Positions 1 to 51,054 of a DNA stretch of 64,000 nucleotides are shown one piece after another (the first letter of the stretch is position 1; every line of letters begins with the position of its first letter). Under the pieces are notes generated by a model. That model was given only the letters and a program-made list of their open reading frames with translations. It was not told where the DNA came from and ran no database searches. The DNA comes from an uncultured Fidelibacterota bacterium (GTDB lineage: Bacteria > Fidelibacterota > Marinisomatia > Marinisomatales > TCS55), in contig CACMQQ010000004.1 in the NCBI GenBank assembly GCA_902615915.1, positions 62,001 to 126,000 on the forward strand. Reading direction: 5' to 3'. The position numbers and the translations under genes are program-made.

Positions 1-3000
1 AGACCGACCGGACTAGTTGCCATTCCCGGTGACCGCAAAGTTACCCTTGGATGGAATCTCAGTAATGATCCTGATATTGCTAAATACTACATATATTACG
101 ATACTAACTCAGATCCCACAACTCTTCGTGATTCCACTTTGAGCGCTTTTCAATCGAACAAATTGATCACCCCGCTTATCAATGGAACTACTTATTACTT
201 TAAAGTTGCAGCTGTAGATAGTTCAAACAATATCAGCATTAAAACGCTTGGTGCAAGTGCTTCTCCTATCAAAGGTTCGGTATATACTGTCAAAACAGAC
301 ACTTCAGGAGGATTTGATTTCTCTAGAATTCAAGATGCGATCAATGTCAGTAAAGATATAGATACCGTTTTGATCTATCCAGGTAATTATAAGGGAGGAA
401 TTAATTTCACTGGAAAGAAAATTGTAGTGGGATCGTTGTTTCTTACAACTGGCGATACAGCTTATATCGATTCAACGGTCATTGATGGAGAAGAATCAAC
501 CAGCGCTGCAACGTTTATATCAGGGGAGGACTCTACCTCTGTTCTTATAGGATTATCGCTAACCAATGGATATACCACTATCAATGGTGGAGGTGGAATT
601 CGTATTGAAAATTCAGATCCTAGATTAAAAAATCTAAAGGTCTTTTCAAATTTTGCCAATATTGGAGGGGGGGGCATCAGCTGTGAAGCTTGTGATTCTA
701 GAATCACCAATGTTACAATAAACAATAACTCTTCATCTGGAAAAGGAGGTGGAATTAGAATTTTCAATGGATCAAACCCAGAACTAATTAATGTTGCTAT
801 TAATTCCAATTCTGCAACGGAACAAGGTGGTGGAATATCCATTGAAGGTCTACCTGGAAATAATATTGATCTTGAATTCAATAGATTAACTGTTCAAGAA
901 AATACTTCGGCAACGGTTGGTGGTGGAATATATCTTTATATATCTAAACTTAATCTATCAAAAGCATTCCTGATGAAGAATTCTGCCTCGACTAAAGGGG
1001 GAGGTATTTCGATAGAATGGGATTCAGATCTTACAATTGAGAATTCATTCATTTTAGGAAATACATTGACTGCAGGGGACCAGGGATCTAATATCTATAT
1101 AGGTAAATCAGATCAGATCATTGGCTCAACTGAGAAACTTCAAGCAATTAATATCAATGTAGTTGACACCGTTTCCTCAAATATTTCAATGTATTCCAAT
1201 GGTCTTATCAAGCCATTATTGATCAATTCTATTAATGTAGGAAAATTGGATGCAGCTGTTCCTACCTATAACTTTGATTTGAATTATAGTTATTGCGATG
1301 ACTGTACCAATCTCCTGACTTTCACGACCAATCCTGGAAACCTGACTGGAGATTTGCCGTTCATTGATATGGATAAAGAAAACTTTGAACTTACCGATGA
1401 TTCCCCTCTTTTAAGCGCTGCTGCCCTATCTTTCACCACTATTACAGGTAAAACATATAATGCTCCAAGCGTTGATCTAAACGGAAGATCTAGGCCTAAT
1501 CCCATTGGATCAATACTTGACATAGGCGCAATTGAAAGTGAATTTTCAGGCAAAACACTTGCTACGACCGGCATTACAGACGGCCTTTCGATTTCAAGTG
1601 AGCTTGATTTTAGCAATATCACTTCCACCCTATCCTCAAGATGGAATCCATATTTGAACGACTCTCTCAATACCTATACCTATGAATTTGCGATTGGCGA
1701 TAGTAGTTCTAGTAACAATGTAAAAGATTGGACCAATAATGGATTTAATACCCAAGTAACTGTATCAGGATTAAATCTGCAAAATAGTGTGACCTATTAT
1801 TTCAGTGTTCGGGTTTTAAATAAGAACGGAACAATTCTTTCTACTATGAGAACGGACGGTGTTCTCATTGATACACAAAAGCCAGTTATCAGCGGTATTC
1901 ATGATGGATCAGATAGCGACATTGATTGGTACGGATTAGATAGCGAAGGCACGGTCATTTTTAACGTTATCGATAATTCGGGTGTAAATATCTACGAATT
2001 CTCAATCGGTACGACTCCAGGAGAGCGAGACGTACTCAACTGGCAATTAGTCCAAGATAGTGTAGGTATATTCAGTACAAAAGATTTTGTTGAAGAAACG
2101 ACTTATTATGTGAATGGAAGGGTCACTGACCGGGTCGGATATGTATCAGACGTAGTTTCATCAGATGGATTTCAGATGGACTTTACAAACCCAATTGCCG
2201 GCAATGTTGCTATAGACAATCCATTTCAATCCAATATCAACACCTTATCATTTAGCTGGGATGGATTCAAGGATGGGCAAAGTGGGATGGATCGTTATGA
2301 TATCATAATAGGAACTGAAGCTGGAAAAAATGATATCTCTCCCAGAGTTTCAACCAACTCACTTACCAATGTAACTATTGATGGACTATCGCTTGAAAAT
2401 AACGTTAAATACTATGGAACAATCTTTGGTATCGATTCAGTTGGTAATGAATCTTCGTCTAGCTCTGAAAGTATTACTATCGATCTCATTCCCCCTACGG
2501 TTGGTACCGTAGCTGATGGATTAGATAGCGATGGTGACTGGTTCAATGACAATGCTAGCGCAAGTGCAAATTGGACCGGCTTTAGTGATTTCAATGGTAT
2601 TAAAGAATACTTTTTGTCGATCGGAACCGAAAAAGGGAATCCTAATATAAAAGAGTGGACCAGCACAGGCGCAGATACTAGTTTTACGTTTACAGAGCTT
2701 GGACTCACTAATAGTACTTTATATTACTTTAACGTCCGCGCTAGCGATCAATTAGGAAATGTTTCAGAAAGTATTTCTTCAGATGGATTTTATATAGATA
2801 CCGACAATCCTCAAATTTCCAGCTCCTCAGCAGATCCAAGCGTTCCCTTGACCATTATCGGTGACCTGAGTATAGATATGACTCTAACTGAAGAGATATT
2901 TAATTACAATGTTAATGTCTCTAGTCTCCACGGAGATATTGTAGCCATCGATCCAAAATCGTCTCTAAGAAACAACAATACTACCCTAAATATTATGCTA

Positions 3001-48292: not shown

Positions 48293-49564
48293 ATGAAAAT
48301 ACCTCTTTATGGAAAAATTATAATCGGCCTAATACTTGGAATAGTATTTGGTATTTTTGCAGCATCGAATGGATGGAATCAATTCACAAATGAGTGGATT
48401 TCACCATTTGGGAAGATCTTTATTAGCTTACTAAAACTTATCGCTGTTCCGTTAGTACTTTCATCATTAATAACGGGCGTTGCATCGTTATCAGATCTTC
48501 AAAAACTATCTCGAATTGGCGGCAAAACTATAATGATCTATATTTCTACTACAGCAGTTGCTGCAACTATAGGCCTAGTTGCAGTAAATATCTTACAACC
48601 AGGAGATAAACTACCTGATGATATGAAGCAAAAGCTACAGTCTTCATATCAAGATACAGCTTCTGGAAAAATGGAGGCAGCTCAACAAATGAAGGAAAGA
48701 ACGGCATTACAACCTATTGTTGATATGGTTCCTCAAAATTTTTTCAATGCTGCCTCAAACAATCGCAATATGCTTCAGGTAGTTTTTGTTTCGATTATTG
48801 TCGGTATTTCTTTAATACAGATTGGTAAATCTAAATCTAAACCAATGCTTAATTTCTTTGAGAGCTTGAACGATGTCGTCATTAAACTGGTTGAAAATAT
48901 TATGATTTTGGCTCCTATTGGGGTCTTTTCCTTGATTGCTGATACAATAACAACAATTGCGGGAGATGACATTAATAAAGTCTTTGAACTTTTAGGAGCA
49001 CTGGGTTTTTACATGATAGCAGTGATAATTGGGTTGATCTTACAAACAACAATAACATATTCTGCAGTTTTAAAAATATTTTCAAAAATGTCATTAAAGA
49101 AATTTTATAAGGGCATCGCACCCGCTCAACTTCTTGCCTTCTCTACAAGCTCTAGCGGTGCAACACTTCCAGTAACAATGGATAGATGCGAAAAAGAACT
49201 TGGCGTTTCTGAAGAAGTCTCATCATTTGTTCTTCCGCTTGGAGCCACAATCAATATGGATGGTACTGCACTCTATCAAGCAATTGCGGCTGTTTTTATT
49301 GCACAAACTCTTGGTATGGATCTATCATTAGGAGCTCAATCTACAATTGTATTAACTGCGGTCTTAGCTTCTATTGGAACGGCTGCTGTTCCTGGAGCAG
49401 GTATAATTACACTTGTAATTATTTTAGAAGCAATTGGAGTCCCAAGTGTTGGGTTGGCATTAATTCTTGGTGTTGATAGAATTTTAGACATGCTAAGAAC
49501 AGTTACAAACGTAACTGGCGATGCAAGCGTTGCTGTTGCAATCGCCTCCTCAGAAAAAAACTGA
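48293..49564 (+). CDS. Dicarboxylate/amino acid:cation symporter (DAACS, GltP/GltT-like)
   Basis: A 423-residue sodium- or proton-coupled importer of glutamate, aspartate or C4-dicarboxylates. The re-entrant loop HP1 'AFSTSSSGATLPVTMDRCEK' (Ser-rich motif near residue 285), 'LPLGATINMDGTALYQAIAA' (sodium-site NMDGT) and the HP2 loop 'LASIGTAAVPGAGI' are all intact, as is 'RILDMLRTVTNVTGDASVAV'. AGGAT lies just before ATG 48293. Transcription is tandem with the DUF255 gene across a 92-base AT-rich gap. Next downstream is the putative 6S RNA gene. Confidence 0.94.
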   Translation: MKIPLYGKIIIGLILGIVFGIFAASNGWNQFTNEWISPFGKIFISLLKLIAVPLVLSSLITGVASLSDLQKLSRIGGKTIMIYISTTAVAATIGLVAVNILQPGDKLPDDMKQKLQSSYQDTASGKMEAAQQMKERTALQPIVDMVPQNFFNAASNNRNMLQVVFVSIIVGISLIQIGKSKSKPMLNFFESLNDVVIKLVENIMILAPIGVFSLIADTITTIAGDDINKVFELLGALGFYMIAVIIGLILQTTITYSAVLKIFSKMSLKKFYKGIAPAQLLAFSTSSSGATLPVTMDRCEKELGVSEEVSSFVLPLGATINMDGTALYQAIAAVFIAQTLGMDLSLGAQSTIVLTAVLASIGTAAVPGAGIITLVIILEAIGVPSVGLALILGVDRILDMLRTVTNVTGDASVAVAIASSEKN

Positions 49565-49593: not shown

Positions 49594-49599
49594 TATAAT
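49594..49599 (+). promoter_or_regulatory. Perfect -10 box (TATAAT) for the putative 6S RNA
   Basis: TATAAT at 49594-49599 would start transcription near 49606, a few bases before the closing stem of the structured RNA. No good -35 hexamer stands 17 bases upstream, so the promoter may depend on a different sigma preference or the AT-rich upstream sequence. Confidence 0.5.
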
Positions 49600-49605
49600 T
49601 ATTTA

Positions 49606-49780
49606 AATTTGAAATGCTGTTTTAGTCTTTTGAATTTCAGGATCTTCAACCTTTTTTTCTTGAGGCTAACTTCTTGAGTTAAAAAACAGGCCTTTCCTTT
49701 CTGGATAAAGGAAGTTTGCTAGCAAAAGAGACCTCTATCGTGTTTACACGGATCCTTGAAATCGATTCTAAAGCAGCAAT
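49606..49780 (+). ncRNA. ssrS: Putative 6S RNA
   Basis: The 242-base gap after the DAACS gene has no credible ORF but folds as one long interrupted hairpin. The closing stem is 49615-49625 with 49768-49778 (11 pairs, one G-U). The second stem is 49635-49644 with 49751-49761 (one bulged T). An open bubble of about 17 and 15 bases follows (49645-49661 / 49736-49750), then GAGG 49662-49665 with CCTC 49732-49735, and an apical hairpin TTCCTTT/AAAGGAA (49694-49713). On the 3' side of the bubble 'CGTGTTTACACG' (49739-49750) can form a small hairpin, as known in 6S RNAs. Size, bubble, upstream TATAAT and immediate terminator all fit 6S RNA, which binds RNA polymerase. Base-level homology was not tested; a long 3' UTR or another structured RNA is the alternative. 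Confidence 0.6.
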
Positions 49781-49808
49781 AAAAAACCCTGCAAGACAGG
49801 GTTTTTTT
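49781..49808 (+). terminator. Intrinsic terminator, probably bidirectional
   Basis: CCCTG (49787-49791) pairs with CAGGG (49797-49801) around a five-base loop, with A6 before and T7 after. It ends the plus-strand 6S-like RNA and, read on the minus strand, the hflX transcript whose stop codon lies inside it. Confidence 0.9.
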
Positions 49809-51054
49809 ATTTACTTAACAGTTTTAACAAACTATCAATTTTACCTATTGGTCCTTTGGCTTTTATATGTAAGTATTCATCTTTATACTTTCTACTAATA
49901 ACAAAGGTAGAATTTTGAATCAATGAAATATTCTTAGAATTGCTATAAGGCAATTTAAGATTAACTGTTTTGTAATTTTTTTCCATAAATTCAACAATTT
50001 TTAGTTTCAATTCTTCAATTCTCAAACTGTTTAATGCGGATATAAATATTGCATTGGGAAATTCAAAATTTAACTTTTGTATTTTTTTATGATTTTCAGT
50101 TTGATCTATCTTATTTAAAACAACAATATAATCGTTTGTGTTGGCATTTAAATTATTTAGAACTTCTTTTATAACTTTATAGTGTTCAATCACCTGATCG
50201 GAGGAAGAATCCAATACAATTAATATCAAATCTGCATCAACCACTTCATTAAGTGTACTTTTGAAACTTGCAACCAAATGATGTGGTAATTTTCTGACAA
50301 ATCCAACAGTGTCACTGAGTAAAATAGTGTTATATTTATCTAAGTTTACTGATCTAACTGTTGTGTCGAGCGTTGCAAATAATTGATCTTTAATTAAAAC
50401 ATCGGCACCCGAAATTGATTTCATAAGGGTTGATTTTCCTGCATTTGTATACCCGACCAGAGCAACCTTATAACTATTAACTCTCTTTTTAGTTCGAGTA
50501 ATTCTATTTTTCTCAATTTTTGTTAATTCATTTCTAAGCTTTGATATTCTATCCCTAAGCAATCTTCTATCCACTTCAATTTGCGTCTCTCCAGCTCCTG
50601 CCCTTGAACCAATGCCCCCCATTTGCCTTTCAAGATGGGTCCATGCTCTTGTTAATCTTGGTAACAAATATTGTAATTGCGCTAATTCAACTTGAACTTT
50701 TGATTCTCTAGTTTTTGCGTGTTTCATAAAAATTTGCAAAATTAAATCAGCTCGATCAATAACCGTTATCTTCTTATATTTTTTATTTATGTTTTTTGAT
50801 TGTGCAGGAGTAAGCTCGTTGTCAAAAATTAAATATTTAACATTATGATATTTAGCTAGGTTTAGAATTTCATCAACTTTTCCTGAACCAAGGTATAAAG
50901 ATGAATTTATTTTCGAAACTTTTTGACTCAAAACTTTAACAATATCATACCCTGCAGTTTTTGATAAAAGCTCAAGCTCTTGCATATGATCAGAAAAATT
51001 TGCGCCACTCAGATTTCCAAGATCTGCACCTACTAAAAATGCTTTTTGATTCAC
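49807..51054 (-). CDS. hflX: Ribosome-associated GTPase HflX
   Basis: A 415-residue cytosolic GTPase that binds and can split stalled ribosomes. The N-terminal HflX domain ('SKINSSLYLGSGKVDEILNL', 'VKYLIFDNELTPAQSKNINK') and the 'RLTRAWTHLERQMGGIGSRA' linker are clear. The G domain shows G1 'GYTNAGKST' (about residue 200), the switch region 'LFATLDTTVRSV', G3 'DTVGFV', and G4 'NKID'. The start appears to be GTG 51054; no stronger ATG is nearby. It is last in a long minus-strand run, six bases after the BatA-type gene, and its stop lies in the shared terminator. Confidence 0.95.
   Translation of the reverse strand: MNQKAFLVGADLGNLSGANFSDHMQELELLSKTAGYDIVKVLSQKVSKINSSLYLGSGKVDEILNLAKYHNVKYLIFDNELTPAQSKNINKKYKKITVIDRADLILQIFMKHAKTRESKVQVELAQLQYLLPRLTRAWTHLERQMGGIGSRAGAGETQIEVDRRLLRDRISKLRNELTKIEKNRITRTKKRVNSYKVALVGYTNAGKSTLMKSISGADVLIKDQLFATLDTTVRSVNLDKYNTILLSDTVGFVRKLPHHLVASFKSTLNEVVDADLILIVLDSSSDQVIEHYKVIKEVLNNLNANTNDYIVVLNKIDQTENHKKIQKLNFEFPNAIFISALNSLRIEELKLKIVEFMEKNYKTVNLKLPYSNSKNISLIQNSTFVISRKYKDEYLHIKAKGPIGKIDSLLKLLSK

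Follow-up and report, generated by a model that had tools for sequence, protein, structure and literature searches.

The window considered here, a stretch of 64,000 nucleotides of a Neomarinimicrobiota bacterium, contains a conserved, structured and standalone RNA of about 180 nt in the gap between two protein-coding genes. The upstream neighbor encodes a DAACS-type dicarboxylate/amino-acid:cation symporter (48293..49564, forward strand; NCBIfam GltP/DctA, E-values of 1e-78 to 1e-64, below the cut-offs), and the convergent neighbor encodes the GTPase HflX (49807..51054, reverse strand; TIGR03156, 415.8 bits versus a cut-off of 216.75). These family models support both neighbors named in a preliminary description of the locus, which had placed a candidate 6S RNA gene between a DAACS symporter gene and hflX. 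Its view of the gap as non-coding also holds, given that the interval from the symporter stop codon (49564) to that of hflX (49807) holds no plausible gene.

The transcript body extends over 49604..49783 on the forward strand and would measure approximately 178 nt if transcription starts near 49606. Of the two covariance models described below, R2 matches it at 49604-49782 with 138 bits, and R1 recovers it in the genome of origin with an E-value of 9e-29. A -10-like TATAAT at 49594..49599 (forward strand), read from the sequence, is presumed to belong to the RNA's own promoter. The hexamer is perfect, as previously described, with the minor qualification that no good -35 box precedes it in the window; at the same upstream place, the sequences of close relatives read TTGAAA, 18 nt and TAAACT.

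Directly after the RNA, where the preliminary description had put a terminator, lies an intrinsic terminator hairpin (stem 49781..49807), located by a search of the forward strand and predicted from its symmetric A/T tracts to be usable from both strands. It is the sole terminator found in 550 bases, against a chance expectation of 0.2. The symmetric element (49781-49809) appears to be common to the RNA and hflX, the convergent gene, which has its stop codon inside the T tract, and the A and T tracts on either side indicate that it should serve hflX too.

Secondary structure and covariation

The predicted fold of the RNA has a z-score of -5.3, equaled by none of 200 shuffled sequences, although the terminator supplies part of that energy. 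A closing stem (P1) pairs 49615..49625 with 49768-49778 in 11 pairs, and is followed by P2, the downstream helix, whose 5′ strand (49630..49644, with one bulged A) is supported by both fold and covariation and whose 3′ strand lies at 49751-49765. The 3′ strands of both helices, together spanning 49751..49778, are supported by covariation. Within P2, 49635-49644 and 49751-49761 form 10 pairs, the 3′ side carrying a single bulged U. The central bubble comprises a 5′ side (49645..49661), delimited through the RF00013 alignment in relatives, and a 3′ side (49736..49750) that is the counterpart of the CCCACC segment of RF00013 and in which the fold places a small hairpin, CGTG-TTTA-CACG, at 49739-49750. 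Between the two sides extends the apical arm (49662..49735), supported by alignments and covariation, which includes the near-invariant AAAAAACAGGCCTT ... AAGGAAGTTTGC. The 11-pair closing stem, the 10-pair second stem and the bubble hairpin of the preliminary description are accordingly all recovered, the last as a predicted fold. The RNA combines a closing stem, an open central bubble and an apical arm within about 160-200 nt, as is characteristic of 6S RNA.

Covariation was assessed on 69 sequences aligned by R1, an alignment that is thus fitted to the structure. In this set, pairing holds in 91.3% of cells, both sides change in 48 of 53 pairs, and double-change cells number 829, versus 255 ± 16 in shuffled data and no more than 189 when partners are slid; in P1, all 11 pairs covary on both sides. 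Because the R1 alignment is fitted to the structure, counts were also taken on a structure-blind MAFFT alignment. In 15 close relatives aligned in this manner, 10 of the 11 P1 pairs have changes in both strands, and 95.7% of cells pair, versus 38-51% when partners are slid. The least supported helix is the 3′-bubble hairpin, with 77% pairing among the 69 sequences in the R1 alignment and 54%, no better than slid, when all 69 are aligned with MAFFT. Owing to misalignment of the P1 arm, the closing stem was absent from an RNAalifold consensus computed on the first MAFFT alignment, and the structure was then set by hand from one family member. The preliminary description had made its reading depend on covariation of the stems in the hflX-side gaps of relatives, and in those gaps the structure is indeed conserved and strongly covarying.

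The UUUCAGG of the P2 5′ strand could instead pair with CCUUGAG/CUUGAG where the 5′ bubble ends (49635-49665; columns 36-65 of alignment A1). Such an alternative pairing, if formed, might act as a refolding switch upon release.

Homology to Rfam-recognized 6S RNAs

A scan of the whole window against Rfam at gathering thresholds returned no match, and the 6S model RF00013, proposed in the preliminary description as a direct check, proved negative on the gap and anywhere in the same genome at E-values up to 10. Other matches in a permissive Rfam scan of the gap were driven by the terminator and rejected as chance. Taken alone, the RF00013 result would leave a 6S reading undecided, and homology rests instead on intermediates.

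Of 61 relatives, 35 carry the RNA by plain DNA similarity to the window. We built covariance model R1 from 27 of these 35 relatives only, without RF00013 loci, and R2 from a wider set of 69 homologues that excluded locus L045. Of the 245 genomes that represent the phylum, 143 have an R1 match, and the named genomes carrying the RNA in an exact-motif scan are Candidatus Neomarinimicrobiota (Marinimicrobia) or FCB-group bacteria. RF00013 itself, whose curated cut-off is 46.4 bits, detects 6S RNA in further families of this phylum: 19 of the 245 genomes exceed the cut-off, and 63 have a match with an E-value no higher than 1. R1 recovers 19 of the 20 RF00013 loci that were fetched, with E-values of 4e-19 to 4e-4; these include L050 (RF00013 46.3 bits; R1 E 4e-19), L048 (46.7 bits; 2e-14), L049 (46.7 bits; 4e-14) and L031 (85.3 bits; 5e-9). 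The only fetched locus without an R1 match, L045 (RF00013 56.4 bits), is matched by R2 with an E-value of 2e-8 in spite of having been left out of the R2 set. In genomes with both kinds of match, 36 of 37 RF00013 places coincide with the R1 place within 25 nt, and the sole exception is a second RF00013 match of 15 bits. Locus L029 links the two groups directly, as it shows DNA similarity to the window (E 5e-7) and also matches RF00013 with 39.5 bits (E 5e-5).

Through the R1 and R2 matches, the coinciding places and L029, the window's RNA is homologous over its entire length to 6S RNAs that Rfam recognizes in other families of this phylum. Since R2 finds no match to Escherichia coli ssrS at E up to 10 and RF00013 misses the window, it is these Rfam intermediates that connect the RNA with the type members. 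We conclude, with a probability of roughly 0.93, that the gap encodes the 6S RNA (SsrS) of this bacterium. The candidacy put forward in the preliminary description is therefore upheld, through covariation and through homologues in other families of the phylum that exceed the curated RF00013 cut-off. The missing RF00013 match is a detection limit of the library model and no biological feature of the 6S family. The kind of gene is already known; what is new is a divergent, fast-evolved 6S RNA that Rfam misses throughout the family of the window's genome.

Directly upstream of the 6S gene in L050, positions 1702-1806 (reverse strand) match the Francisella sRNA FtrB with 39.3 bits against a cut-off of 66; this is probably a dispersed palindromic repeat.

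Gene neighborhoods and alternative explanations

Divergence beyond RF00013 detection would also suit a 6S-derived RNA with a different mode of binding to RNA polymerase, in the manner of Actinobacteria Ms1, which binds the core enzyme and not the sigma-bound holoenzyme; Ms1 is structurally related to 6S RNA (PMC9130861). We consider this explanation very unlikely: the gap has no match to the Ms1 family with an E-value of 10 or less, a continuous gradation connects the lineage with RF00013-positive 6S RNAs whose bubble segments align, and the template position in the bubble is kept, with a C in 55 of 69 homologues.

The neighborhoods of the homologues bear on a second explanation, that the structure is merely the 3′ UTR of the symporter mRNA with its terminator, the outcome that the preliminary description had named as fatal to its reading. 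In the window, the RNA begins about 40 nt past the symporter stop and the -35 box is weak, as a 3′ UTR would have it. Across homologues, hflX lies convergently downstream of the RNA in 52 of 69 cases, as it does at the over-cut-off 6S loci L045, L048 and L049, but the upstream gene varies among the symporter, an inverted symporter, DUF255 and others. L045 sits between symporter and hflX, and L048 and L049 between DUF255 and hflX, both of which occur at this locus in the window's genome. The RNA is kept where the symporter is inverted (L010), in L019-L022, where no symporter was found in the stretch examined, and in L048 and L049 with DUF255 in its stead. Because the upstream genes change and the RNA does not, this gene-context test rules out a symporter 3′ UTR, to which we assign only a minimal residual probability. 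6S RNA is a standalone gene, usually present in one or two copies per genome, and the RNA studied here conforms to this pattern, with one match in its own genome and variable neighbors.

Least probable of all, to the point of being negligible, is a cis-regulatory element or a new class of trans-acting RNA unrelated to 6S, for which the near-invariant apical AAAAAACAGGCCTT ... AAGGAAGTTTGC might speak, given that homologues of the RNA match RF00013 above its curated cut-off and that the terminator and convergent gene after it leave no downstream cis target, which excludes a cis-regulatory leader.

Sequence divergence and comparison with known 6S RNAs

The 6S RNA of the window shares with the RF00013-positive 6S RNAs of other phylum families its length, order of helices, open central bubble, 3′-bubble segment, apical arm, single copy and, in part, its hflX-side position. 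It differs from them in that its branch has replaced CCCACC with CUCUAUC, is AU-rich, carries a fixed apical sequence and falls below RF00013 detection. The change in the 3′ bubble is gradual, from TGCCCACCGT, the form of RF00013 (consensus CCCACC) that some homologues retain, through CCTCTACCGT to the CCTCTATCGT of the window. Judging from the sequences, this change and the AU enrichment elsewhere in the window's RNA would help to explain why Rfam misses it.

Near-invariant alignment blocks are found at the border of P2 and the bubble (TTTCAGGATCT) and in the apical arm, where AAAAAACAGGCCTT ... AAGGAAGTTTGC (49681-49721 in the window) is almost invariant over many genera in alignments A1 and A2. 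The apical arm seems to be conserved in sequence beyond what is expected for 6S RNA, which would count against a plain 6S reading. It is conceivable, though we think it unlikely, that the nearly fixed apical AAAAAACAGGCCUU/AAGGAAGUUUGC constitutes an added lineage-specific contact, for instance with a protein partner or as an altered -35-like element; if true, this contact would go beyond ordinary promoter mimicry.

Bacillus subtilis 6S-1 is reported to form a small 3′-bubble hairpin already in its free state (PMC8876501); the RNA described here resembles it in this hairpin, as predicted by the fold, and in a predicted pRNA that begins with G. The likeness to E. coli 6S RNA (ssrS) lies in the general architecture (PMC8876501), whereas the 9-pair 3′-bubble hairpin that the E. 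coli RNA forms on release is without a clear counterpart here. The partial match of the window to 6S-Flavo (RF01685) is at chance level (17.4 bits, E 7.4, cut-off 85), so that by this test the RNA is no member of that family.

Predicted interaction with RNA polymerase

6S RNA mimics an open promoter and thereby blocks bacterial RNA polymerase. In this imitation, the 3′ bubble supplies the -10-like part and the apical arm the -35-like part; release is triggered by the pRNA that polymerase transcribes from the 5′ bubble and the P2 strand (PMC8876501). By analogy, we infer that the window's RNA would bind the polymerase holoenzyme and act as a pRNA template. Its closing stem, open bubble and apical arm would mimic a melted promoter, and at low nutrient levels the RNA would fill the active site of the holoenzyme carrying the housekeeping sigma factor. 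Upon a nutrient upshift, polymerase would use the 5′ bubble side and the P2 strand as template for a short pRNA, and this synthesis would unwind P2 and set the enzyme free.

Homology with 6S RNA predicts a pRNA template made up of the P2 5′ strand (49630..49644) and 49645-49647. In the RF00013 register, the GGAUC of the window is the end of P2, and pRNA synthesis is predicted to start opposite C 49647, at about the third bubble base, a position occupied by C in 55 of the 69 homologues. Read from 49647 downward, the template would yield a pRNA beginning 5′-GAAGAUCCUGAAA, with GTP-initiated GAAGAUCC as the predicted products.

Distribution across the phylum

Among the Neomarinimicrobiota, an uncultured marine phylum, R2 recovers the RNA in 187 of 245 genomes, representing 78 of 84 genera, nearly always as a single copy, and thus fills the detection gap left by RF00013, which exceeds its cut-off in 19 of the 245. 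Within the literature library that was searched, no paper pairs 6S RNA with Marinimicrobia or SAR406. With an updated family model, ocean metatranscriptomes could be mined for 6S RNA as a marker of growth state in these bacteria.

The lineage model also reveals a clade of small genomes without detectable 6S RNA. In the 24 genomes of genus g22 (G050, G060 and G086-G107; family f15, 0.4-1.0 Mb), which belong to the same order as the window's genome and of which eight are at least 90% complete, R2 has no match at E up to 0.1 and RF00013 finds nothing. R2 matches at E-values of 0.13-10 were discarded as chance, since the best of those inspected have no apical arm and are mostly unrelated to each other. 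This absence suggests loss or extreme divergence, and 6S RNA may have been lost in this clade in the course of genome reduction. At the other end of the range, G132 carries two strong matches on separate contigs (G132:C43:335-522 and G132:C4:2969-3155); the genome has two 6S copies, or else its assembly (contamination 4) is mixed.
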